DNA of 39,971 nucleotides from NCBI GenBank assembly GCA_034696485.1, contig JAQIWT010000069.1:1-39971 (forward strand). The letters are read 5' to 3'. This document shows, piece by piece, positions 633-39,000 of this stretch; the first letter of the stretch is position 1; each line of letters begins with the position of its first letter. The translations under genes and the position numbers were made by a program. The notes below the pieces were generated by a model that did no database searches, was not told where the DNA came from, and was given only the letters and a program-made list of their open reading frames with translations. This DNA comes from Isohypsibius dastychi. Its lineage: Eukaryota; Tardigrada; Eutardigrada; Parachela; Isohypsibiidae.

Positions 633-2341
633 TCAAGCCATATCTTCCATCATATTATCATCATCAAAATCCTCTGACATGGGCGAGTTATTTTCAGCGT
701 TGTCCGCATCCTCATTCACCAACGCATCGACATTCAGGAGTTCAGGTGGAACATCGTGCCTGTAAGAAATAATTCTTAAACGTATTTTGAACAACGAAGA
801 AAATGAAAAGGTTGCACAGGAGAATTAAACTGAGCGGTTCACTTAATCTTACATATGGACACTGGGAGCATAATTCAGATTTCGGAGATTCTCATGAACG
901 TGACGAACAATAGACTCCAAATACTGACGGTTATTCTGATTTTCAGACATCTGAAGTTCGGGATGAAGATTGAAATCCGGTCGGAAAGCTTCCCAGTATT
1001 CAATAATGGGCAGTTCGTTGTTCAGTTCGGTATCAACCAGAAGGGATGTTTCGTATGTCCAGCAGCGCGCTACATTCCTTACAGTGTACCCTCCGCCTCC
1101 TGTCAAGAACAAAATTATAACAAAACAGAAGGAAAAAGTATAACAAAACACCTAGCACTAAAATTGGCATATTAAATTTCTTCATATATTCCACGCATTT
1201 CCCATGTCCTTTGATCGTCAGCGAGAAGCTACCAAGTCGATCCCCAGCCAATGAATCCGCTCCACATTGCAAGACAATCGCAGAGGGTTGGAAAAAATGC
1301 ATGACTTTATCCATGACCGGCTTGAAAACCTGATCAAAATAGGAATCGTCGTCGATCCCCTGTTTCAGCGGAACGTTGACGGAATAGTATTTTCCGGCGT
1401 CACTTCCGGTTTCGTACATGTCGCCCGTTCCGGGAAAGAATCTCTCACCATAACGGTGGAAACTGACCGTCATAACGCGATCGCATAGATAAAATGCCTC
1501 CTGCACTCCATCGCCGTGGTGGATGTCGATATCAATATAAATAACTCGCTGATGATACCTAAAAGAAAGTAATGGCGTCTGATATCTTGCGAAAGATTTC
1601 AACAGCCCGAGCAGTTGTCGTCTCAGAAGCGCCACACACCATAAACATATCATAAGTTACGCTGTACCTTAAAAGCTCAAGTATGGCCAAAACGATATCG
1701 TTGACATAACAAAATCCGGAAGCTTCCACCTTTTTGGCATGATGAAGTCCCCCAGCCCAGTTTACAGCAATATCGTGTGCTCCAGTATTCAACGTCCTCG
1801 CTCCATCTAGCGATCCTCCCGTGTATATAGAGCAATAATCAAACAATCCAGGAAAGACAGGACAATCGTCGCCAACCATGAAGTTTGCCAGCACTCCAAC
1901 CTTGGCGAATTCCTGCACCGTCGATGGAGTCACAGTGCTCAAGAATTTTATGTATTCCCGGGAATGGAACTTCTCCATATCGATCTGAGACGCTCGATGT
2001 GGTTTGTAAACGTCCATCTTTTCATCCAGCTTGTAGCTGACGACTAAGGAATGCGTCAAAGCGAGCCGATGTGGTTTCATGGGATGATTTGGTCCATAAT
2101 GGAAGTTACCAACCATCGGATCGTGAAAGTATGCAACCCGCTTCGATCCCTTGTTTCGACGGCTGAACTGCTGAAGTCGCTCAGTACGCACCGGTTCCCG
2201 ATCGGATTCCGGTTCTAAAATTGCAAGTTTGAATTTTCTGGACAAATACGAGGTTTCTTCGAAGAGATTACCTGAACCTGAGACTTTCGCTCCAACTCCG
2301 CTACTTTCACCCCGATCAGATCCAGTTGCGCTCGGCATCAT
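633..2341 (-). CDS. HDAC3: Histone deacetylase 3-like (class I HDAC), four exons
   Basis: This is a zinc-dependent class I lysine deacetylase, the catalytic subunit of NCoR/SMRT-type nuclear corepressors. Exons on the minus strand are 2341-1668, 1558-1152, 1099-853 and 759-633, and all phases join to give 484 aa. The His-His dyad is in AGGLHHAKK near residue 200. Zinc ligands are in [11 protein letters not shown] near 236-238 and in CGADSL near 324. The catalytic Tyr is in [18 protein letters not shown]3-specific text includes [12 protein letters not shown] and ENQNNRQYL, and the acidic tail ends EDM-A. The family normally starts just before VAYFxDP, but here about 68 residues precede it, Ser/Gly-rich and then basic (RRNKGSKR). 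Bases 2271-2215 (57 nt) inside this extension have GT-AG ends and no in-frame stop, so a 465-aa form is possible. The class I catalytic core is certain; HDAC3 rather than HDAC1/2 is very likely. Confidence 0.95.
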
Positions 2342-4757: not shown

Positions 4758-7700
4758 ATGATGCTGTGTTTTGTGTTCAACATTCCGTGGACGCCGGTAT
4801 CATTGTTGTTATTTCTGGATGTTATCCTTTCCGTAAGTCGTATACTCCTCGTAAATAATAAATGGTAATGATAAATACTTTGGTCAAAAACCGTTACCGG
4901 CATTCCCATCGACGCATTTTCATTCAGTTTGAAGCTACATGACCTTTCAGAACGTTTAGGTGTCAACGGTTACTCTACGTATTCATATACATACTTACCA
5001 GTAGACATAGGTAGATAAAAGAAAAATGATTGTTGAATGGCACAGCTTAACTGCAGACCACACTACTGTATAAAATACCGAATAATAAGTACAGCATCAT
5101 ACTGAATTACTAAAGAATACTGTGTATGTTGCCTAATAACTCCCGCTAGAAAATTCATTCGAACCATCGTTTTATATAGGCTGAAGTAATTCAATATTCA
5201 AAGCTTCTTCTATCCAACTGAATATGTTTCCAGATAGAATAAGTTTTCCTATGATAAGTGTCAGCTGTCGGACAATGCGTTGACATTCTGTTTGAACGGG
5301 CAGTATGTTTTGCAAAATTCAGGATATTGGTATCGCAGTATTGTGTTGCAGCAACAAAAAACTTACAACATTCCACAACCAGAAGGATTACAACCAGAAG
5401 GATTATCAAATCTAGACGTCCCGTATCAACGTGAGTTCTCTGTTGCCCTGGACTCATCACACCAAAGCCAACAAAATCAACAGCAGCCACATCATGCCAG
5501 CTTTTCCAGACCTGATTCCTCAAATTCTCTGCCAAACCCCGGCTCAAGCAAGGTGGATCCAAATGCACCCTCTTGCAGCGGGAAAGGTGGCTTTTTTGCA
5601 GATTACGCACAAAACTGCCGGGTATATTATCGATGCAGTCCAAGTGGACGAATGTCCCGCTTCGAATGTCCCACGAACTACATTTTCTCTGAAAACGCAA
5701 AGCGTTGTGATCCAGCGGACCGAGTAACATGTGGATCCAAAGGTAATCAAGAACAAGGACAATCAAACGTAAAGACTACACTCCGTTAAGAAATTTACTG
5801 GAAAACTCCCATGTTAAGTCTACGAGAGTTTTCCAGTAAATTACTGAACGAAGTGTATCCTGCCTGCATCTGGGTACCCAAATCTGGCGGATATCCCAAA
5901 CGCTTGGGCAAGACCTGTTGTGGAGGAAACTGCACCACCACTTCTGAGTGCCTATGAACCCTTGATTGGGTTAGTTAGTGAACAACCCGAACTACTACAA
6001 GCGGCGAACATCAGAATCATGGTAAGTAAAGCACATCGTTGCTGAAAACAGTATGTTTAAACCTCATACAGTATCGGACGTCCGAACCAAAGGAACCCAC
6101 GTAAGAACCCAAAAATACAGAACTGAATGCTTTCAGGGTGAGCCCAGAACAGTGCCGCTTGATATTGATCCTGATATTTGTATCGGACGACCCAACCAGT
6201 ATGTTGCTGACGCTGACACGGGATGCAAAGGTGAGCCTCATTTGTTATTTTTACTTAGTATAGCAGATGCCGAATGTTCGTATTATTTCCTTGGCTTTCC
6301 CATAGGATACATTCAGTGTGGGATAAAAACAGGAGCCCCCTTCGTTTCTTACATGTGCCCCGAACTGATGCGTTTCGACACGAAAACCAACCAGTGTCTT
6401 CCGCGGAGTCACGTCCGCTGTATAGAGGCTGAGTTTCTCTTTCCTGTAAGACTTCCTGGAAGTGGTCATCCAGAAGCTAACTTTCTAGCGAACAAGTTAT
6501 TTCTAGCGAACCTTTGGCCCAACGTTGACCACTCAAGCCGGGCAGAACATGGGATTCAATATGGTGTCAAGAACCGGATCGTTCGTCACAGAGATGCCTC
6601 TGTCTATCAGCAACCCCTCCACCAGCAAAATGACCAACGTTTCCCCGTGTGCAGGAAAAGTTGGTATCTTCGTTCCAGATTATTCACTGAAATGTCGAGT
6701 AAGAGAAGAATGCTCAAAAAGAATCATGAATGATTCGTGCATTACGTAGGTCTATTACTACTGCAACAATGACAACACGTTCATCAATCTGACATGTCCA
6801 TCTGAAGTAAGACGGTCCCCGTGAAGTTTACTCGTATTAACCACGTTATTCTCTACTATACAGATGATATTCAATTCTGCTTTGCAAAGTTGTGACTTCT
6901 ACCAAACTGCCCCAGAATGCAGGTCGCCGATTCCTACGCCTCAAAAAATGAGCGAGCCAGCACCTGCAAAGTCAGCTGAATCCCGACATCAAGCTTCTCC
7001 CTGGACTAATCCATTACCGCGTTTTCGCTCATTGATACCTCAAATTACCGCAGTTCGTTCATCACCTGGATTACCTACGCTAGAAATGCCAACTGGATTC
7101 CAGAAACCCGCATCACAACCACGCCCAAGTCCGCTCAAGAGCTCAGTGGTGAACTACGGTCAGATGGCTAAATCGGCGCCACAGATAAATCAGCCAAATC
7201 CGGCGTTCTTTGAGGGATTTAAAGGATATGATGCGGTCGGAGTCGCTGATAGTTTCTTGAACCGGGTTCACACTGGCAATCCATTTGTTAAGCCTGCTCA
7301 CGGCATTGCACCTCCGGTGGTCTATCAAACTGCGAGAAAACACGGAAATACAGTCCCCGGAGCGCCGGTGACTGTATATGAGGCAGAATGTGGCCAGGAG
7401 CCGGGAACCATTGCTTATTACATAGAACCAGAGTCGGGATGCCGGTAAGAACAACAAAGCTTGAGTTTTTTGTCAGACCTCATCAGACCCGGTGAATTCT
7501 TGTTTTAATTTTGACAATTGTGATCTCATGGTTTCGGTTTCAGCATCTGGCATCTTTGTCACCCGAACATGACGATGGAAACATATTCTTGCCCTCCGGG
7601 AGAAGTTTTCGTACACGAGGCAAGAGCATGCATTTCTAATCAACTAGCGTTCTGCATGGATCCCATCTCAAGTGACGCGAAAGATATTCTGCACCGAAAC

Positions 7701-17234: not shown

Positions 17235-19603
17235 TCAGTAGCCTAATCGTTTGTTCAAATCCGTCAATCCATCTCCAGCTTGATCTGAAATGAATACGAT
17301 TGCGAAAAACAGCGGGCAGACCGCTTAATTAAACCGAAAACGCAAACAAGACGTATGGAAAAACACCATTCTCCCACAAACGTTTACCTTCCGGTGGTAT
17401 CCACATCGCATAATCAGGATCACTAGCATTGTATTCTACATCGGTTTCCTTCCTTTTACTGGGTTTAGGCTTCTTCACCTATGAAAGAAAGTCATTAGAA
17501 CAAATATCGGAAAAAGAGGTGCTGTCGAAAAACAAGGCAAGGAAAATTCACATAAAGTAAAGTTGACAACCAGGCGACACACTGAAAACTTACCACTGGA
17601 ATATATGGTTTAGATTCTGAAGATTGAGTCGGTATATCCTCCTGTGTGGTCATTGAAACTGACCCAGAAGATGAATCTGGAATCACATCTTTTTCGAGGG
17701 GCCGCTTAGAAGTGCTCGACGTTCTAGCGTCATTTGGTACAAGATCCGTGAAAGACGATAATTCTAGTAAAGTCGATGTGGTTGCTTCAGCGCTGGGTTC
17801 CGTTTCCGGTTTTTCTTCATCCACCTCCTCTTCAAAGACTTGGTTCTTCGAGTGATCGAAGATCCTGGCCGGCAACAGAGGTACCGTTTTCAAACGCCCC
17901 AGTGAAACTGTGGCTTGACCGGAAGTTTCTTTCGTCAGGTTACCAGATTCATCTGGGCCAACAAGCTTAGACACCGCTGATATGGGGTCAAGCGGAAGCA
18001 GCGCTGGTTTGGCGATTTCGATTAGCCGTTTAAGTTTCACCTCGTCATGATTAAGTTCTGTGAGACGCTGTTTCAGTTTGATTTTCGTCTTTGGGTCCAT
18101 AATTAATCCAGATTTGATGGCGTCCATAAACGTATCCAGCGCATCCAATCCGCCATCTCCCATACTTTCCGATTTCGCTTTCTCGGCTTTGCGAAGCTTT
18201 TCGGAAATCTCAGCAATTTCCTTCCTTTGATTATCTAATTTCAAAACCAGAGTATCGTAAGTCTCCAGGACGGCATCTTTCTTTCCGGAACGCTGAATTC
18301 TTTTTTGACGCTTCCTCTCAACGGTCCCTGTCCTGCAAATTGAAAACCATTCTATAAAACAAACTACCGACGGCTAAGCTGAAATTAGATACATATATAT
18401 TCGCAGTACCGCTAACAGGATGAAACTGGACAGCTTAATCGTAAACTTAACGTACCTGTCAAGGAAAGTGTCTTCATCGGAATCATAGAAGTCCTCATCG
18501 GCCCAGTTTTTTCCTTTACTTCGTTTTCCTATGCTCGTTGTTCCTTTCAAAACTCCTTTTGAATGCAGAATCCGACAAGCTTCAACAATAGCTGCAGCGA
18601 GAGCCTCCTTCTTTTTGCCAGAAACAGTAGCTTCAGCAACAATCTGTCGGCCATTGGGCGTCTCCAGCGGGAGTGGTAAGCGACATAAATACTGCTTTTT
18701 GTGGCCATGCCCAACCTCTTCAACATCATACTCCATATCCAATCCTGCAACGAGATTAGAACATTGAACATTCGAAAATCAACATCAAATGCTGATGTCA
18801 GCACAGTTGTAAGGACAAATACCTTCACGTAGAAAGAATGCATTCAGGGCCTTCTTCGGATCTTCCTTGTAATATTCGTCAAGTCCAGCAGGTAAGGTTT
18901 CCAGGAATCCAATTTCTTTCTCCTCATCCACAGCATCTTCACCGAATCCCCAGCTAACACCATCCTCCTCCTTTTTCTCCGGTTTCCTATCCTCAGTCGC
19001 GACTTTGTTCGGCATAGTGCCTGGTAGATCACTTTCCATATCTACGTCGTCGTCTGGCCCTTGGAGAATGTAAAGGCGAGTACTGGCTCCAAATTTCATG
19101 ACATAACCCGGTCGAATATTGACAAACGAAAATGGAACAACGCGGAACTTGTTGACAACAGTGCCATGAGTACTTTCCAGATCATACAAATAAAAACCAT
19201 CTTGTGTATCGGGAGATTTACAGCCAAACTGAAGAACTGCGTGAATCCTGGAGCAACTGGGGTGTTCACAACAGATATCACATTGTTCGGGCAATCTTCC
19301 AATGAGGAACTTGGATTTCCCACCAGATAGAGCAATCTTGTCAACGACGACTCCGTTTTTCAATACTTCCAGAGAGAAAATTCCATCAGGGACTGGTTTT
19401 GCCCACAGAGGCTCCTCAAATTCCGTGCTCGTAACTTGCTGTTCTCCGTTTTTGCTAATCTCAGCTCCAGGCTTGTGAGAACTTTCAGCCGAGGGTTCCG
19501 AAGCAGATGCCTTGCGCGCAGGTACCTTAAATGAACTGGATAATTCGTCATTGCTCGAAGGCACAGAAAATGTGGTCGAAGTCGACTGTAGAGGTTCGTC
19601 CAT
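17235..19603 (-). CDS. SLC4A1AP: Kanadaptin-like FHA/dsRBD protein (SLC4A1AP), five exons
   Basis: Exons on the minus strand are 19603-18823, 18744-18456, 18332-17594, 17478-17388 and 17284-17235, giving 649 aa. An FHA domain spans about residues 75-170, with phosphopeptide-loop residues in FLIGRLPEQCD, PSCSRIHAVLQF and DLESTHGTVVNKF. A double-stranded-RNA-binding-like fold follows (EYDVEEVGHGHKKQYLCRL to AAAIVEACRILHSKGVL). Next come a KRKRQKR-type basic stretch, a coiled coil (DNQRKEIAEISEKLRKAEK) and a Ser/Glu-rich region. The conserved tail is MWIPPE-DQAGDGLTDLNKRLGY. The family is nuclear and linked to RNA processing; the old anion-exchanger trafficking role is doubtful. The start at 19603 has a good Kozak context (AGCCATGG). 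It is divergent from the heat-shock gene. Confidence 0.92.
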
Positions 19604-20526: not shown

Positions 20527-21370
20527 ATGGCTTTGTGGCTTGGACATACTGGACGACCGCGAAACACTTGGGAGATGGAAGCTGTTGGTCCAGTTGGATT
20601 CGGTGACATCCTCGGTGATTTTGACCGCGAATTCCGCCGGATGAATCGTGAACTGGTAAGATCAAAGCTCGATTTGTTTGATGCCAGTGTTTTGGAGAGT
20701 GGTTGTTTTTAGAATCGCTTGGAGCGTGACTTCACTCGTGGTGGAAATCAACAAGGAAATCAGCTTGCTTCCTTGGTAAGTAATGAGCTGAGTTATCTAT
20801 CTGGTACAACATACTGACCGGTGTTTATAGGTTGATCGCAACATCCCGATTTTGCCAAACATTGTGGTCGACAACAACGGTCAGCGTCAAGCCCAGTTCC
20901 AGTTTGACACTCGTGGATTTGCCCCGGAAGACATCACCATCAAGACGGAAAATGGCAACAAGCTGATTGTTTCCGCCAAGCATGAAGACAAAAGTGAGGA
21001 CCATCATCACTTCCGCGAATTCCGTCGAATGATCGGTAACGGCAAATTATACCGTTTCTGATCTTAATTGGTTTTAACCTCGTTGGATTTTGTAGCTATC
21101 CCCGAGGGAGCCCATTTGGAACAGATGCAATCTCGTTTGAGCCCACAGGGGGTCTTGACCATCCAGGCACCATACAATCCACCGGCGCTGAAGGATAGTG
21201 GGGATCGGGTAAGTTACCCTGTTTTTTATCATATGTATCTTGTCGTTGATATATGTTTCCTGCTGCAGATGCTCCCGATCCAGCATGAAAAGGGTGGAGC
21301 CAAACAGGGACAGCAAGGTCAAAATGGACAGCAGCAGCAGATTCAAGGTCAAGCTGGACAGCAAAAGTGA
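20527..21370 (+). CDS. Small heat-shock protein (HSP20/alpha-crystallin), five exons
   Basis: An ATP-independent holdase chaperone of 203 aa. Exons are 20527-20655, 20713-20775, 20831-21035, 21096-21208 and 21269-21370, with phases joining. After an N-terminal arm (MALWLGHTGRPRN), the alpha-crystallin domain runs from about residue 65 to 145: FDTRGFAPEDITIKTENG, LIVSAKHED, FREFRRMIAIPEGAHLEQ, LSPQGVLTIQAP. An LPI sequence near 173 stands where the family has its I-x-I tail motif. The last 25 residues are almost only Gly and Gln with a few Ala and Lys, which is unusual. The start is the first ATG after the TATA box, in context GACATGG. A perfect HSE upstream suggests heat or stress induction. 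Four introns in a stress-induced sHSP are notable. AATAAA is at 21583. Confidence 0.95.
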
Positions 21371-22011: not shown

Positions 22012-25000
22012 TTAGATCTTGATTGCGTGCTCATACACTCCCATCAAAATCATAATCCCTGGAAACAACAACCACGTTATAATACCGGAAACGATGAAGC
22101 CCTAGTGTTTATATTACCGACTCCGGCCAACATGCCGATATTTTGCACGATAAACGTCGTGACGTTCTTTTTTCCGTTCTTCAATTCGGGCAGCTATGAC
22201 AGAAAAAACTTCATCAAATCGGATCAACTTCCCAGCAGAACCTCAGGTTACTCACCATATCAGCCAACGCAACATACAGAAACATTCCGGCGGCAACGAT
22301 GAAAATCCATTGACGAGCAGACTCTTGTTTTGCAATCGGAACCCCAATGTAGAACCCGAGGAGACAGGTTAATGCAGTGACGAAGTTTAACACCATAGCT
22401 TTCCTGAATGACATTCCCGTTCCGAGAAGGATGGCAAAATCTCCTAAAACAAAACAGCAAAGTCATCTCCATTTATTGTTGTATAAGGAGTAGCAAGTTT
22501 GTCAAAGATTTACAGTCCAAATACTTTCATGAATAAGCAGATTCTCCGTGCAAGTCATCAAACCGCTACACGAAAAAACAGAAGACCGGCGACCTACCTA
22601 GTTCATGAGGAACTTCATGACAAAAAATCGCAATGCTTGTGGAGATCCCGGTGTTGACATCAAGAGAAAAGGCCGCTGCTATGGTCAACCCATCTCCGAA
22701 ATTGTGCAGCGAATCCCCCAGTAAGATCATCCAGGCTAGAGGCGACAATCCTACAAACAATTCCAGCTGGTGCATTGCAACTTTACGAGCTCATGAAGGT
22801 CATCTAGTTAACATACCCCACAAAGTATCGGTTTTAGGTTTCTGCACGACATCCTTATCGCTGCCATCTTTCTCGACTTCTTTCGACATTTCGATAACAG
22901 CATCCTCCGGTTTTGAACGAGCTTGAAGAAATGCAGCTGGATCAGGAATGTGCGAATGATCGTGGTCATGATCAGTGTGTTGATGACCACGAGAATCTTT
23001 CTTCCCATGTCGATTCCGATGATGGATAAAAGAATGAAGACATATTTCCCATAAGAAAAAACCGTATATTGCTGCACAGCAAGCAAGCGCCCGCCACAGA
23101 ATGGTGCGATCTTCTGGTTCCTCACCGGCATGTCCGTGGCCATCGTCATGGTCGTCATGTTTGTGCACACCGAAGCCCTGCAAAGTTAATAACGTGCAAA
23201 AAACAAATATTTTCAAAATGTTTGAGAAACAAAATATTTAAACTAAACAATTATTACACAAAATATTTTCCGTCAGGACTCATGCAGACATATGCGGGAT
23301 TGGGCAAGATTCTGCACCACGGGAGTAAAATATAATACCTCGGGAATTAGATGCAATAGTGCGTCACCGGTCAAAGTTCCGACTCCCAAAGCGATGAAGC
23401 CTTGTAGGGCATACTCATAAATCTCTCTTTTAAGTAACGGAAAGAAGAATATCCCGAGGATAGAAAGCAAACTGATGACGATAACAGAGACCGTTCCGTA
23501 TCCATAAACTAGAAGAAAAAAAGATATGATACAAAAAACTTCCCGGACACCAGTCACTCCTCTTAAAAACGAGTAGTAGCAAAAATTCTCGCTTACTATG
23601 GGAATTTGGTGGATGCTCCGAACGGATTGGAGCCAGATCAACAACTTCACAAACCCCAGAAAACGCTTGTTGAATCAGCGCCGGACAAAGACGTTCAAAC
23701 TCCTGCTGATTCAAACGGTCTTTGTCGACCAGGTAAGCTTTTTTGAGGGCGTCCAAGGACCAACAAGTTTCGTTTGCAGGTTTTTCTGCTGATAAAACAT
23801 CACGTTTTATCCGGGAATCTGACGAGTTTTGGTTATCAGTGTGGTTCGCAAGGCTGTGTTGCTTGTGGTCAGCGTGGTCGTCATCGTGATCATCTCCATG
23901 GTGGTGATTATGATGACCGTTCACAGAAAAGTTACCGATCTTCAGCTTCATGGCAATGTCTTCCAGTTCTGCGATGAAACAATACTTCAACTTAATTAGA
24001 TCTAGAATCTGATAAACCTTACTGTGAGACGATAGGAACAGATCAGAACCTTTAAGGTCAAATAAAGATTCTATAAAAACTGAAGGAGACGGAGGATCCA
24101 CATGTTTTTTCTCCTCTATACGACCTGCAACAACAAAGAATACTTCGTTTAATGAAACAGAGACAAATCCATGGAGAATTTGCTCCGATCAAACTTGACC
24201 TTTAACTCTTACCTTCAAGGATTCGAGATAGTATGAATGTTGTGAGCAGAGGCACTTGGTCTGGAGGAATATCAGCAGATTGCGGGATCAGCAAAAATTC
24301 GTAGATGGCATGAATCAACGTCTCCTGCAAATTCAAGTTATACTAAAGGAAGAAACAGACACAATGCCAAAACCCTCACCTTTTCCGTGTGCCGTTCAGA
24401 TCTCTGAGTTTTCGGGTCGGAATCAAGCTTCTCAACGAGATTCAGCAAATCAGTTCGGGACATGTTCGTACCGTTCGATATCAATGTTTCCACCCAACAT
24501 GAAAACGAAGATTTAGGAGGGTTGACGTTATGGCAGGGTGCTTGATTCTTGATAGAGGTCTCAGAGCAGTAAACTTCGAGGTTGGCAGCATAACTGATGA
24601 TAGGAACAGAAATGCGAGAGAATGACATCGGGGAAAGGACTTCCATTCCAGGTAAGTAACCGGCTTGCTTGAAAAGCTCTTCGGGTTCCAGACACCGCTG
24701 AAAATACAGACAGGTTCACCAACCCTCAATAGCAATTTAAAGCTAGCTTCTCAATGGATAGAAAGAGACCAGAACAAAAACATGCTGGAAATCTAATATC
24801 CAGCACTCACGTTTTTGTTCGAACAGCGAGGAAAAACTGATGTTTCATTCACAGGATTTCGGCATGGCCGTTTCCGGAGCATTGTGTCAATGATATTCTG
24901 CAAATCCGGAAACGTCCTTATGGGCCCACCGCCAAATTGTTTCGCAACGCTGTCATACAGCGCATTTTCACGGCGATAAATCACCGGTGACACCGGTGTG

Positions 25001-25149
25001 ACGGCGGCAACTACCGGCATGATGTGGCAGATGCAGCAGCAACAGATGATGCAAGTTTCCAGAATTCCATGGGTGTGGCTCGACTTTTTTCCCGACTTGT
25101 GTTCGTGCATTTTTTCCATGTTGCGAAACAATTGAGAATTCTCCGACAT
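22012..25149 (-). CDS. ZIP zinc transporter, LIV-1 subfamily (ZIP4/ZIP12-like), nine exons
   Basis: A zinc importer. Minus-strand exons are 25149-24811, 24697-24380, 24324-24213, 24124-23597, 23508-23339, 23177-22817, 22780-22598, 22443-22256 and 22193 onward, about 780 aa. Exon 1 carries a Cys-rich hydrophobic segment, probably the signal sequence. The long extracellular part includes [16 protein letters not shown] and a His/Asp cluster ([14 protein letters not shown]). Helix 1 starts [15 protein letters not shown]. Helix 2 ends [12 protein letters not shown], followed by more His repeats ([18 protein letters not shown]). The helix 4-5 metal site is [17 protein letters not shown] and [30 protein letters not shown] fits ZIP4/12. 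The last exon has a frame problem at 22118-22103: the LPELK frame stops at 22077, while the helix 8 continuation ([18 protein letters not shown]) is in another frame ending at 22012. One intron is only 36 nt. An acceptor directly before the start ATG suggests a 5' UTR intron. Confidence 0.88.
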
Positions 25150-27236: not shown

Positions 27237-29719
27237 ATGGATTATCAACCGAATTTTTCCGCCTTCACTCGGAGAGCACCAGCTGGAACTTTCGGCCCCA
27301 CAGATTTTTATTCTGCCAATTTAGAACGAGAACTAGGACTGCGATCTGGACGGAATTTTCAATTTCAGCAGCAATTTTCGGAGAATCTGATCCATCGACT
27401 GGGACTGTCGTTCCAGCTGACGGGTCATGAAGGTTGCGTGAACTGTACGTATTTCATTATAATTTGAAGTTTTGAGCACAAGGGTTGGCAATCAAAACGA
27501 CATTTTTAGGTATCGAGTGGAATGCAACGGGGACATTATTGGCCAGCGGAAGTGACGATGTGACCATCCGAATTTGGAATCCTTTCTCCAATCAAAAGCA
27601 GCGAAATGTGATATCCACCGGACACACCGGAAACATTTTCGGGTAAAAGTTCAAATTCTTTGTTCTCGCGAAAATTGAGCACCTGTGCAGTGCGTCTAGA
27701 GTGAAGTTTCTTCCGGAATCAAATGACAACATTCTGATTTCCTGCGCCGCTGATGGAACCGTTCGGTTGCATGACGTAAACTACGGAGAAACAACGAGAA
27801 GTTTTTCTTGTCATCTTTCGCGTGCGAAAAGAATTGCAACAGCTGTTGACAGCCCTTTTTTGTTCTGGAGTGGCGGCGAAGACGGGCTGGTCCTGCAGTA
27901 CGATTATGTTATTATTTTCTCGGTTATATGATCTTTACCGTCAAAATTTACAGGTACGATCTTCGTGCCCCTTCAGTATGCGGCGACCGAACATGTGGAC
28001 ATGTTCTGATTAATCTCAATCCCTACCTGAACTCAGCAGAAGTTAAGAGCATAGCTTGTAATCCCGTCCGTACAGAATATTTAGCCGTTGGAGCCACCGA
28101 TTGTTTTTCTCGGTTATATGATCGGCGCATGTTAACCGTCAAGACTTACATGTAGGATCCTCTCATCAGTAATTCTGAAAGTGTGTTGATTTAGACCATC
28201 TTGTTTTTCCAGTTATCCTGTGACAAATGTCGAAGGGAGAGCAGTTCACCAGCGATATACTTGGTTAGCCAATTCAGTGGATGCAGCCGAACAGTTCAAG
28301 CTTCCTCCTGGTTGTGTTCGATATTTTACTCCTGGACATCTCCCGCAACGAAATGCTGAAATGAAAAATGGTTGGAAATCATTTGCTATAACCGATATTC
28401 GCTTCAGCGCTGATGGGTCGGAAATCCTGTCGAACATCGGTGGCGAACAAATTTATTTATTCAACATCAACGCTGCTGACCCCATCATCAAGGTGTTCTC
28501 TGTCAACCCGAGTCTTCAGCATAACATCAAAAACGCCCCGGAATTGACTGGAGTTGCAAAGAAGTTAAAAGAACAAGCCAACGAGCATTACCACAAAAAC
28601 GACTTCCATGATGCAATTCAGGCGTACGATCGTGCTCTGCTGTATTGCCCTAATTCCAGTATCCTGTATTCCAACCGAGCTGTTGCGCTTCTGAAACGAA
28701 ATTGGGATGGTGGTGAGTGAATCGAAGTGACGGGAAATTTACCGCAATTTCGATTACCGTTTTGACCTTTGCTGTTTTTTACAGATGGGTATCAGTCCCT
28801 TTTGGATGCATACAAAGCGTTCCTGTTAGACCCTACTAACGACAAAGCACAATTTCGTGTGATAAAAGGACTTCACCATGTACACCGTCTTGATGAAGCC
28901 AAGACATGGCTTGAGTTTTTCCGACAGAATCATGCTTACAATACTCGGTAAGGTTAGGCGGTATTATCCGGTCGAGAATGAACTTAAGTTTCTTCTGATT
29001 AATTCACAGAGATTTACTCAGTTCAGAGTCATTTCTCAGACTGGAACAAGACATATTGAAAGCGCTTGACCCAAAGAAAAACGGTCGGAATCGCCCGCAG
29101 AAAGCAAGACCTCAGCTGCACCAACAGGAGCAGCAGTGGCGTGATTCGGCTGTAGATTACGAGAAACGCTTTGTTGGACACTGCAATACAACGACTGATA
29201 TAAAAGAGGCCAATTTCGTCGGACAGTCTTCACAATTTATTATGGCTGGTTCGGATGATGGGTCGTTTTTTATTTGGGATCGCGATTCGACAAACCTGTT
29301 AAAGGTCATCCGTGGTGATAGAAGTATGATTTCTTTGACCAAGCTTGGATGTTTCAGAAATTATGTGTGCCTTCATATTTACAGGTATAGTGAACTGTCT
29401 ACAAGCTCATCCTACAACCTGCATGATAGCCACCAGTGGAATCGACTCTGAGATTCGGATCTGGAGTCCCTTAGCGGAAGTGTATTCTTCAGATGAATGC
29501 TCGGATGCGATGGCGGGACCGGCTGAAAACGAAGATGCGAGTGCTGTGGGTATGGAGGTCGAAAACGTTGCACAGGCTACTAATGCAAACCAGCGTCGTA
29601 TGCACGCTGATCCATGGAGCATAATATTTGCAAATTGGGTTCATGGAATCAACCCGAGAGTTGCCGTAGGAGTTCCGGATAATGATGAGCCGGATCTTGA
29701 GCGATGCGCTCAACAATAG
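27237..29719 (+). CDS. WDTC1: WD and tetratricopeptide repeat protein 1 (WDTC1/adipose), eight exons
   Basis: A substrate-receptor-like protein for CUL4-DDB1 ubiquitin ligases, known as adipose in flies. Exons are 27237-27444, 27510-27642, 27700-27897, 27954-28151, 28213-28712, 28785-28947, 29010-29323 and 29385-29719, giving 682 aa (human is of similar size). N-terminal WD repeats include LTGHEGCVNCIEWNATGTLL, SGSDDVTIRIW, GHTGNIFGVKFLPES and AVGATDCFSRLYDRRM. The middle has the conserved YFTPGHLP and NIGGEQIYLF. A TPR block runs from KKLKEQANEHYHKNDF to SNRAVALLKRNWDGDGYQSL. The C-terminal WD repeats hold GHCNTTTDIKEANFVGQSSQ, GSDDGSFFIWDRDSTNLL, SIVNCLQAHPTTCMIATSGI and ANQRRMHADP. Intron 3 (27898-27953) has the marks of a recent gain; see the repeat entry. 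Confidence 0.97.
27898..27960 (+). repeat. WDTC1 intron 3 with flanking 7-base direct repeat and filler copied from exon 4
   Basis: GTACGAT occurs at 27898-27904 (first bases of the intron) and 27954-27960 (first bases of exon 4). Inside the intron, 27915-27933 is identical to 28105-28123 in exon 4 (TTTTCTCGGTTATATGATC). The next 19 bases match exon 4 bases 28133-28151 at about 16 of 19 positions after a 9-base gap. Removing one repeat and the interior restores an uninterrupted WD-repeat codon frame (LQ-YDLR). Confidence 0.85.
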
Positions 29720-30288: not shown

Positions 30289-30383
30289 GTCTGCGTGGTG
30301 TAGTGGTTATCAAAAAAATTCGGCAAATAATGTACGCCTGTCTCACACACAGGAGGTCCCCGGTTCGATCCCGGGCGCAGACA
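30289..30383 (+). tRNA. tRNA-Val(CAC) interrupted by a 22-base insertion in the D-stem
   Basis: The acceptor arms GTCTGCG (30289-30295) and CGCAGAC (30376-30382) pair 7 of 7, with discriminator A at 30383. The anticodon arm is CCTGT-CTCACAC-ACAGG, giving anticodon CAC. The variable loop is AGGTC. The T arm is CCCGG-TTCGATC-CCGGG. The 5' D-arm text GTGTAGTGGTTATCA is typical of valine tRNA. Between positions 24 and 25 lie 22 extra bases (30313-30334, A-rich). Removing exactly these leaves a perfect 73-base tRNA. Both internal promoter boxes are intact and a T5 terminator follows at once. Normal animal tRNA introns sit at 37/38. It may be a pseudogene or carry a non-canonical intron. Confidence 0.85.
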
Positions 30384-32995: not shown

Positions 32996-34364
32996 ATGGC
33001 TGCCAAGGAAGGCGTAAGAACTCCTCAGGAATTCGGTATTTCAATAGGTATGATCGGTGTATGGTATGATATAGTTATGTATTTCCATATTTCGATGCTT
33101 TCTTCGAGAATTGCTGATAGAATTGCTCATTTAGTCGATGCCTTTACAAAAGACCCGTTTGCCGGAAATCCCGCCGCCGTATGTTTGCTTCCAAAAGACA
33201 CGGTAATGCAGTATAATTACACCACTGAATTTTGCATGTTGGTTGTTTTAGGATATCGACGATGAGACTAAACGAAAAATAGCCGCGGAAATGAACTTGT
33301 CAGAGACCGCCTTTGTCTCTTGTCAAAATCCGTCCGACACGTTCGAGAAATGTGATGAGTTTTCTCGGTACAGTAGCTTCATTTTTTAGTATTATAGTAT
33401 TACATTTTTGCAGCTCAAACATTCGGATTACGGTGGTTTACGCCGACCCATGAAGTGGATCTCTGCGGGCATGCAACCCTGGCTTCCGCTAAAATTTTAT
33501 TCCAGCTGTGTGGTAACCGGCTTCTCATGTAATTTCTTTGGTTCGTATTCGAACTCATCTTTCCAGGAAATCAACGCGGGGAGCTGCGATTTGAAACTCG
33601 AAGTGGCACTTTGATCGCCATTTCCAGAGGAGACTCAATCGCGCTGGATTTTCCACAAAATCCACCATCAATACTCCTTCCGGACGATCTAAAAATACTG
33701 CAGCCCTTAATCGATCTAAGCTGTGGATCAATCGGTCCCGATAAAATTGAGGATATCGCCCTGTCGCACACTTCGCGCAAACTTTTAATTCGTCTAACGG
33801 ACACTGTCACAATGGGCGAACTGATCAACTGCGTAGTGTTGCCGGATCACCTCATTAACGCTTATGCGGATGGGAAAGTTATGGGCGTCATTTTAACACT
33901 CAAAGGGTCCCGGGAAAACGGATGTGTCGACCAAGATGGAACCGTATACGATTTTGTCTCGCGTTATTTCGCTCCTTGGTAATCTGCAGTTTTGGGGTAC
34001 AAGTGCCACTGAAGCATCTGATTTGGTGTATTTAGGTGGGGCGTCGGAGAAGACCCAGTAACTGGGAGCGCACACACAGTGTTGGGACCGTATTGGGCCG
34101 ACAAACTGGGCAAAAGCACGTTTTATGGTAGGTTTTTTTCAAAGTCGTTTGCAAATGTTGACCTGTTCTCTCGCAAATTCATGTGAAAAAGCCTATCAAC
34201 CCCCACAGCTTCGATTTATGGTTTCTAAAACTCACGGATGTTCTGTTCTAGCTCGTCAATGCAGCAAAAGAGGAGGTGACCTTTTGGTTGTAATTCAACC
34301 CAACGATCGGATTGAGCTGATTGGAAACAGCCGTATAGTTGTCCAAGGAAAGATTATGGTGTGA
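32996..34364 (+). CDS. PBLD: Phenazine-biosynthesis-like (PhzF/PBLD family) protein, six exons
   Basis: A PhzF-fold isomerase-like protein, probably cytosolic; the animal substrate is not settled. Exons are 32996-33202, 33252-33351, 33414-33512, 33567-33978, 34036-34127 and 34252-34364, giving 340 aa. Family landmarks are [31 protein letters not shown] (with the conserved catalytic Glu), [54 protein letters not shown] and [10 protein letters not shown]. Human PBLD is 288 aa and starts almost at the DAFT motif. The roughly 45 residues before it here may be partly 5' UTR; Met at 33092 is an alternative start. It is followed closely by the integrin-like gene on the same strand. Confidence 0.93.
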
Positions 34365-36077: not shown

Positions 36078-39000
36078 TCACACTTGTGTTCGGTCTCCTA
36101 CTTTATTGCTGGTCAGGTCTTTAATATACGGCGTGATTCGATCGGAGCCGAGCTTACTATGTACCGCCACAACGGACAGCATACATTCTTTTCGGACATT
36201 AGGCTCGTGTGATAAGTTGAAGCCCTGTAAAGTTTGTTCAGTTCATGCAGATCGGCGAGCCGAAGTACAGGCTTACCTCAACTACGGTGGGCATGACTTT
36301 TGGCAATGAAACCTCCAGCTCAGCGGGCTTCGAACCTTCAATACAGCCCCTCAAAAATCCCGCCGCAATCATGTTCTTCGGAGAATCCTCCGATAGGATG
36401 GTATCTTGAAGAACACACGCACACTCGTTCAAAGATACCGCGGACCTAACTTTTCCCAAAGTTTCTCCTGCCTGCCGACTTATCTACAATTCGTAAAAAA
36501 TGTTTACTTCAACGGTCAACAAACAGGTAAAAAATTGGTAATACATACAGCTTTGTTTTCGCCATTCTGAAGTTCAATGAGCAGGAGCAGGGTCTGCTCG
36601 CTTCCAGGCACTTTGGATTGTAATAAATATGACGCTAGTCGAAAGCCACTCTGAACCACATCTGGATCTCCATTGCTGAATAATTTAGCAATAGACGGCA
36701 GAACTTCGCAGACATCGTCTTTGGTCCATGATGTTGTATCTCGAAGCCTTTCTTCCATCTGAGCGCATCCACTGAGCACAATACTACAAAGCCAGTTTTT
36801 ATATTTTCCGACAAACTGAAAGCGTGTTTTCGATTACCTTCTTTCATTATCACAAATTTGGCTACAAATCATTTGAATCAGTTTCCGGTGATCGTGTGAA
36901 TCAGCTTGATTTTTCACAAGTTTAGCCGGCGTATTAAGGCTGTGCCGGCTGAACCCGCTGTCTTCACTCGGATTCCGCTTTCCTTCATCACCAGAGCTAT
37001 AGTCCAGATTCGAATATAAACTAAACTTTTCAATGGCATCCGTTGTCTGCTTCAACGTGGCGTAAAAATCGTCCGGGTTCACGTTTTCGTCATTTGATGA
37101 CTGGACAGAAGGCGATGACGTTTTTGGTGAAACCGGTGTTGACAGGTTTGGACAAGACCCCTGGCCACTTCTAGGGGTCCCTGGAATTTCTCGTTGTTTC
37201 CCACCGATAATTCGAAGAGCCGTGTCACGGAGAAAGTCGTCCATCAGAGCGAGCATACTGGTGAATTCTCCGGCATTCAATTCATGTAAAGAAATGATGA
37301 CCTTTTGAGCTTGTTTTTTCAGTTCGGCGGTTTTTCCTTCCTGTGTCCAGTTGACAATTTTGGTCACACCGAGTCGTACGGCGCTTGTGTTTTTGAAATC
37401 ACTGGGCGCCATATTCTTTGATATCAGAGTGTTGAGATAATTTAAATAAGCTGATTTGACTTTCAGGTTGGGTGTCTGGAGATTATCGTTGACGAATTTC
37501 AGCAACTGTTGGAACTGACTTTCTGCGGCGAAAGAGTTTCTGATCAGCTCGAAACAGCGGTCAAGTTTTGATTGTACGCTTGGAAGGAGATCAACACTCA
37601 TTTTGCCGAGTAGCCTTGTCATGAGAACGTACAACCAGCTACCAAGGTCCAGTTTGTGAACATTGAGGAAGTCATAGAGGGTATCGAGAAATAGTGTGAA
37701 GACTTTTGTTGTCGGATCGCTCATCATGCGAGTCAGAAGTAGCCGGACATTATCCACATCTGCTGGACTGTAAAATGCAAAGACAAATGAGTGACCACTT
37801 GACCAACTGAGATGATTTTCTTTTTCATTTCGAAAACATGTTCAGGAAACCACGTACTATAATTTCTCGGTTCGAAGGTGTTTCTGAAGTCCTAAAAGAC
37901 CTTCCTTTCGCGATGACCAGTTTGGACTGGAAAGAAGGGCAATAATATCCGGTACGTTCTAAAAAATAAAAATGCGTAAGAAAATTTAATGTATTTACAG
38001 CGTGAGATTTGGTGAATACATAATTAAAACGCGAGCCGCTGAGCGAGTTTTGGGAGCCAAATTCACTTCCATCGTTATCCGACTGATATCCTCGATTGTC
38101 AGGTTTTTTGCCGCCGCCTCTGATAGCCGACGCTGTTCTTGCTGGAAGACCGGAAAATGATCGCTTTTCTGGGCTGTTATCCCGGCTCGCAGCGTTCGAC
38201 CTTGAAACGAACTTCTTTGGAGTTAGATTAGTTCGAGGTCCGCTCGGTGATGCATCTCGGGAAGTACCTTTGAAAATCGATTGATGAGTTTTTTACGAGC
38301 ATAATATTATTATCTAATAAATGAGTCAAGCAGTAAAGATGATTTACATGTTGATTGTGTGCCGATCTGCCTCCTGCTCCTCAATGGCGTAGTCAGAGCT
38401 GATCCACCGGATTTTGACGCAACTGGAATTCCACTCTTGGCTCGCGCGCGACGCGCTGCATCCGCATCAATGGAGCTTGAAGAGCGAAGAATGGGCTGAC
38501 AATCCGTTTCGCCTTCTGTAAAAATTTTCTTTGTTATCCGCCTCATTGTCTGATTCATCGGATTCGCTATGAACAACGAAAAATAACAGATGCAAAAAGG
38601 TCACCGGCAACTGTTTTTTTTTGTTATGAATTTGGAATTCAGAACGAAAATCATCTTTTTTGATAACGTTGTTCCGTTTTCGTAATTTACCCGACGGCTT
38701 TCTCGCTTTGATATCTGTCCTTGAAGAACTTCTTGTGGCTGCACCGCGTTGAAAGCTGATCCCAGAAGGAGCTTGACGTCCATCTTCAAGCATTCTTCGA
38801 TTTGGTGCGTCGAGCTGATTGACAAGAAGGTCGGCTTGTTCGGGAAATATGTCACAGAAATGCCAGTATGCTCTATTGAAAAACGAAAGAAATTTGCATC
38901 AGGTCAGTGTTCCGTTAGATCAACAAGATTATGTGGCCGCATCTGTTAAGCATGGTAATCTTCAAGACCGACAGACAAGCGCAAAAAACTCAAATTGAAA

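Follow-up and report, generated by a model that had tools for sequence, protein, structure and literature searches.

A short WDTC1 intron of the tardigrade Isohypsibius dastychi as a candidate for intron gain by local copying from the following exon

Intron births with a visible source are known but uncommon. Two conditions for strong evidence of intron gain are attributed to Logsdon et al. in the part of PMC4974935 used here, namely absence of the intron in near relatives and an identified source, and most new introns, even recent gains, are described as having no known source in the passages drawn from PMC4202315 and PMC2809761. Of 100 conserved and 77 gained introns in Drosophila, 26 and 19, respectively, have flanking repeats of at least 5 bp (PMC3296678, in excerpt), and new Caenorhabditis introns are reported to be enriched for repeats of 3-5 bp but not of 6-8 bp (PMC9169325, in excerpt). 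Because repeats of at least 5 bp are no rarer at conserved than at gained Drosophila introns, a 7-nt repeat alone would not carry a case for gain. Related literature, likewise represented by excerpts, includes PMC7854359, PMC12357937 and PMC8469720. Among the matches listed, no title in the tardigrade intron literature concerned intron gain in tardigrades, and the exact combination of features described below was not found in the intron-gain and templated-insertion literature (titles and beginnings of abstracts, among the matches listed). Here we describe intron 3 of the WDTC1 gene of Isohypsibius dastychi, which, judged from its sequence, is probably a candidate for a fairly recent intron gain by local copying error; the probability that it was born by copying from exon 4, by whatever route, is put at roughly 0.78.

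The window (the whole stretch of DNA analysed, 39,971 nt of contig JAQIWT010000069.1) belongs to an assembly of 30.4 Mb in 1648 contigs (GCA_034696485.1). The spliced WDTC1 model starts at 27237, ends near 29716 and encodes a 682-aa WD-repeat protein in eight exons separated by seven introns of 56-72 nt each. The model is 59%, 57% and 56% identical to proteins of Paramacrobiotus metropolitanus, Hypsibius exemplaris and Ramazzottius varieornatus, respectively, which are the top matches among the matches listed (best 120 of 1004) and each carry the name WD and tetratricopeptide repeats protein 1 in one or more sources. Near-identical matches to the WDTC1 protein in the assembly are its own exons at this locus only, and the intron 3 site has a single match in the 30.4 Mb. 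Exons 3 and 4 (27700-28151) are each exactly 198 nt long and introns 2, 3 and 4 all lie in phase 2. Intron 2 (27643-27699) has an unusually weak acceptor, GTGCAGTGCGTCTAG, without a pyrimidine tract (1st percentile of the 192 introns sampled below), and its splice is backed by NIFGVKFLP, common to all three tardigrade homologues. The other genes predicted in the window are given in Table 1; an ARAGORN tRNA with a four-base anticodon at 30289-30383 is probably a false positive. A scan of viral contigs with a pattern from the WDTC1 alignment matched 19 stretches, none of which encodes a relative.

Table 1. Features of the window, in order of position.
Feature	Positions	Strand	Remarks
Histone deacetylase	636-2338	-	Pfam match, simple gene-finder model
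FHA-domain protein	17238-19603	-	Pfam match, simple gene-finder model
Small heat shock protein	20527-21367	+	Pfam match, simple gene-finder model
ZIP zinc transporter	22015-25020	-	Pfam match, simple gene-finder model
WDTC1 exon 3	27700-27897	+	198 nt, ends ...CTGCA; spliced model
Intron 3 (predicted)	27898-27953	+	56 nt, GT...AG, phase 2, 71% A+T
GTACGAT copy 1	27898-27904	+	Supplies the GT of the 5' splice site
TATGTTATTA	27905-27914	+	No clear source; 7 nt longer than donor equivalent TGT in the alignment
Copy block A	27915-27933	+	19/19 identical to 28105-28123
Copy block B	27934-27953	+	16/20 identical to 28132-28151; holds the acceptor AG
GTACGATCTTC, exon 4 start	27954-27964	+	GTACGAT copy 2 (27954-27960); proposed return microhomology
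WDTC1 exon 4, putative source exon	27954-28151	+	198 nt
CGAT in exon 4	28098-28101	+	Proposed entry microhomology (recipient GTACGAT); putative role
Proposed donor segment	28102-28151	+	Last 50 nt of exon 4
GTAGGATCCTC, intron 4 start	28152-28162	+	Match runs on over the splice junction
PhzF-like protein	32996-34361	+	Pfam match, simple gene-finder model
Sixth predicted gene	36081-38793	-	No Pfam match, simple gene-finder model

Left unspliced, intron 3 brings an in-frame TGA and a frameshift into the reading frame; spliced out, it leaves LVLQ/YDLRAP, which aligns without gaps to 10 homologues and bears out the statement of the initial annotation that splicing restores the WD-repeat peptide. 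Residues Q180, D182 and R184 are invariant in that alignment and the adjacent residues vary. Intronization of old coding sequence would make the protein shorter than its homologues by the length of the intron; no gap is seen at the site relative to the 10 homologues. The annotation had also proposed that intron 3 and exon 4 start with the same GTACGAT, that the first of these copies provides the 5' GT, and that 19 consecutive intron bases are identical to a stretch of exon 4, all of which was found (Table 1). Its second match is likewise present at 16 of 19 bases (27934-27952 against 28132-28150), with the correction that the intervening gap is of 8 donor bases (28124-28131), not 9; these are missing from the copy, and the donor segment is otherwise matched over 28105-28123 and 28132-28151. 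The two collinear blocks make up 39 of the 56 intron bases and, with GTACGAT added, leave about 10 bases without a source.

Divergence between the copies is low (4 of 39 aligned bases and two indels), with four substitutions in block B (A to T, G to A, C to T, T to G) and none in block A. Since the peptide encoded by the exon, CFSRLYDRRML, is kept in other tardigrades (Hypsibius, CFTRLYDRRKL), exon 4 is the source and the copy ran from exon to intron. The low divergence of a non-coding copy, set against protein identities of 56-59%, suggests that the copying happened after this lineage had separated from the three tardigrades named above. On C1066, a distant WD paralogue (four matched pieces, 33-40% identity) is without an intron at the equivalent place, as a single stop-free stretch matches residues 144-245, and is too distant to polarise the gain. 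The donor site of intron 3 scores at the 6th percentile and the acceptor at the 21st among the 192 introns; weak donor sites are also reported for novel Drosophila introns in the part of PMC2809761 consulted. Weak sites do not single out intron 3, because other WDTC1 introns are weak too (the intron 2 acceptor).

The match of block B extends past the end of intron 3 into exon 4 and, on the donor side, passes from exon 4 into intron 4, a read-through that the initial annotation overlooked. At the junction, TTTACAG/GTACGATCTTC aligns with CTTACAT/GTAGGATCCTC, 9 of the 11 bases past it being identical (27954-27964 against 28152-28162), and block B and the junction match both lie 198 nt from their donor counterparts, exactly one exon 4 length. 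Agreement with this sequence at 9 of 11 bases or better occurs in 7 of the 39,960 11-mers of the window, itself included; when GTA is set aside as expected at a 5' splice site, 6 of the remaining 8 bases agree (chance about 0.004, simple binomial). On the left side, CGATT at the intron start aligns with the CGATT just 5' of the donor block (28098-28102), after a 7-nt length difference. Short matches to the recipient thus mark both ends of the copied tract.

Local alignment gave intron 3 a score of 23 against its flanks (+/-500 nt), where the best of 20,000 dinucleotide shuffles of the intron reached 18 (Gumbel p about 3e-8). For comparison, introns were taken from predicted genes whose coding sequence reached 450 nt or more; dropping 43 longer than 150 nt from 235 left 192, made up of 185 predicted introns (window plus 200 kb of the same genome) and the seven WDTC1 introns, which were entered by hand, the gene finder having missed intron 3 and put the gene start at 27928. 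Intron 3 ranks first of the 192 for similarity to its own flanks (next 18.5, T-rich, then 15) and first for forward terminal repeat (7 nt, next longest 4), with two other introns also totalling 7 if matching bases 5' of the junctions are counted in. Against the flanks of intron 3, none of the 185 predicted introns from outside WDTC1 scored above 14, the WDTC1 introns being left out of this control because the neighbours lie inside those flanks; against intron 3 itself, no score above 13.5 came from 232 other 1-kb pieces (sampled 240 kb, forward strand). At one mismatch or fewer, the 19-mer occurs at exactly 2 places in the 30.4-Mb assembly (reversed-pattern control 0). Block B alone is not distinctive, with 7 other places in the assembly at 17/20 (reversed control 5), and it is its collinear position that counts.

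The other raised scorers, all predicted introns, were judged unconvincing by eye: one on C1 (18.5, T-rich), one on C5 (13.0), and those at window positions 20994-21095 (15.0) and 6022-6136 (14.0). Across 240 kb there are 15 pairs of exact repeats of at least 19 nt whose members lie within 1 kb, low-complexity sequence excluded: C2 has 12, in or near tandem arrays, C5 has 2, and the remaining pair is that of intron 3. Local duplication by itself therefore does not set intron 3 apart. Within L021, a tandem array of TTCGATGCTTCGTTGG-like units occupies 744-1126 and a separate duplication, with offsets of 134-146 nt, lies at 2119-2225. Within L024, two predicted short introns about 430 bases apart (2509-2566 and 2937-2986) have 15 of 17 T-rich bases in common, possibly by chance. 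Introners are multicopy and yield new introns, sometimes with short duplications. Similar copies of the kind expected of an introner or transposed intron were not seen here, the 19-mer being found elsewhere in the 30.4-Mb assembly only in exon 4.

Within the reading of birth from exon 4, copying in one step between microhomologies is put forward tentatively as the best explanation, at somewhat short of even odds. A break or replication stall at CTGCAGTACGAT would leave a growing end that pairs with the CGAT at 28098-28101, which is 141 nt downstream in the intron-free gene. The donor segment and the first intron 4 bases (GTA) would next be copied, the copy being what is seen in the sequence, after which the end would rejoin the recipient at the GTA with which the same block begins, and GTACGAT would be made twice. 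Exit after GTACGAT with return at GTA (donor GTAGGATCCTC, recipient GTACGATCTTC) would duplicate GTACGAT automatically, and duplication and filler would therefore be one event without a staggered break. The earlier suggestion of break repair that copied a nearby template holds in so far as exon 4 is the local template of the filler; the 7-base repeat needs no staggered break. Either alternative end joining of the polymerase-theta type or template switching during replication could carry out these steps. Both microhomologies are short (CGAT, 4-5 nt; GTA, exact, 9/11 when extended) and were picked after the fact.

Computed from this model, the product would read GTACGAT, 50 nt and GTACGAT, a 57-nt insertion. 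The modelled insert is in frame and free of stops, keeps the donor's own frame and adds 19 WD-repeat residues (LQYD-CFSRLYDRRMLTVKTYMYD-LRAP); a joint fit of entry frame and length has a chance of about 1/9. Intron 3 differs from it by +7 and -8 nt, a few ambiguous left-end bases and the four substitutions. Of these, T to G would have turned TTACAT/GTAC into TTACAG/GTAC and so given the acceptor, with the donor GT coming from the duplicated GTACGAT; G to A would have removed a competing AG eight bases upstream of the acceptor; and A to T and C to T would have enriched block B in T, favouring the acceptor. After splicing, the indels and the stop would have been tolerated, the direction of these changes being read from the conserved exon. 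The changes in block B fit selection for the acceptor, 0/19 in block A against 4/20 being too few for a contrast. A history in which an in-frame coding insert with 19 extra WD-repeat residues was first tolerated, and point mutations later made it a spliced intron, is doubtful but conceivable; if true, it would be a route of intron birth without immediate splicing or nonsense-mediated decay as shelter.

The same donor could have been copied by other routes. A tandem duplication of exon 4 (198 nt, in frame) might have occurred with the imperfect repeats GTACGATCTTC and GTAGGATCCTC as its end points; a 141-nt internal deletion between the two CGATs would then have left 57 nt of the first copy as the future intron. 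Such a history would explain why block B and the junction match are offset by exactly the exon length and why the start of exon 4 resembles that of intron 4 (9/11), the peptide would be restored automatically once one copy was spliced out, and tandem duplication with intron creation is documented (PMC4974935, in the part used); it is nevertheless rather unlikely, as it needs two events where one is enough, and neither inspection by eye nor the best local alignment revealed an obvious trace of exon 4's first 140 nt other than GTACGAT. The full duplicated unit is absent, only the last ~50 nt of exon 4 and GTACGAT being represented, and there is no AGGT in the recipient, CTGCAGTACGAT, the donor end reading ACATGTAG. 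The route favoured in the initial annotation, read as a staggered break whose 7-nt overhangs were filled, followed by untemplated TATGTTATTA and then the exon 4 filler, accounts for the exact 7-nt repeat at both ends and for the 10 bases without a clear source, and flanking repeats of 4-12 bp are reported at new Daphnia introns in the excerpt of PMC4202315. We consider it improbable, since it predicts neither the match running from exon 4 into intron 4 (9/11) nor the CGATT just 5' of the donor block; a left end templated throughout would instead read GTACGATTGTTTTTC.

Two further explanations were weighed. An old intron could have had its interior overwritten by a patch of exon 4 through gene conversion or slippage, and local copying into introns is possible in general, but only about 10 of the 56 bases would be left for the older intron, which makes overwriting less likely; the copied tract also passes the 3' splice junction, the 5' end repeats the exon, and the 7-nt forward terminal repeat is the longest of the 192, so that this explanation is regarded as more improbable again. 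Chance similarity is opposed by the shuffles (p about 3e-8) and by the uniqueness of the 19-mer pair in the assembly. An assembly or amplification artefact might be entertained in a fragmented assembly (1648 contigs), but the copies have diverged by substitutions and indels, unlike those of a fresh artefact, and the reading frame requires splicing; chance and artefact together are extremely improbable.

Set beside the known routes of intron gain, birth by copying from exon 4 comes with an identified source (the 19-mer pair and the collinear blocks), and its source, the proposed points of entry and return and the later splice-site changes are all legible in the sequence, which would make intron 3 useful for testing mechanisms; the case comes from a group with few reports in the literature searched. 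The short direct repeat over both splice junctions looked for in double-strand break repair is present (7 nt), as are a nearby template and junction microhomology, CGAT and GTA/GTANGATCNTC, chosen post hoc. Any animal should carry a PF00476 protein, yet profile searches with PF00476 and PF02735 gave no match in this assembly, whose completeness is unknown and whose genes are split into exons, so the search for repair genes is uninformative. Insertions described for polymerase theta are small, and the intron 3 insert is longer. The link to this polymerase is made by resemblance, polymerase theta templated insertions sharing with intron 3 a nearby template, short microhomologies and a direct repeat motif (PMC7407515, in the portion used).

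Like the Daphnia neointrons of the review PMC3443670, as far as the excerpt describes them, intron 3 has short terminal direct repeats, canonical GT...AG ends and a stop or frameshift if unspliced, and it is a short AT-rich insert (71%, against a mean of 78% in 90 Daphnia neointrons). Most Daphnia neointrons are without a known source, whereas the source of intron 3 is the next exon; the Daphnia cases are backed by intron-free alleles or outgroups and cDNA, and intron 3 is known from genomic sequence alone. With the tandem genomic duplications described for the potato RdRp gene (PMC4974935, in the part used) and, as cited there, vertebrate ATP2A1, intron 3 shares a source in its own gene, direct orientation and a preserved peptide, and the duplicated segment of potato RdRp likewise crosses an exon/intron boundary. 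It differs from these cases in representing about the last 50 nt of an exon, without the AGGT of the Rogers form, in an acceptor AG that would have needed a new mutation, and in being known here from one genome.
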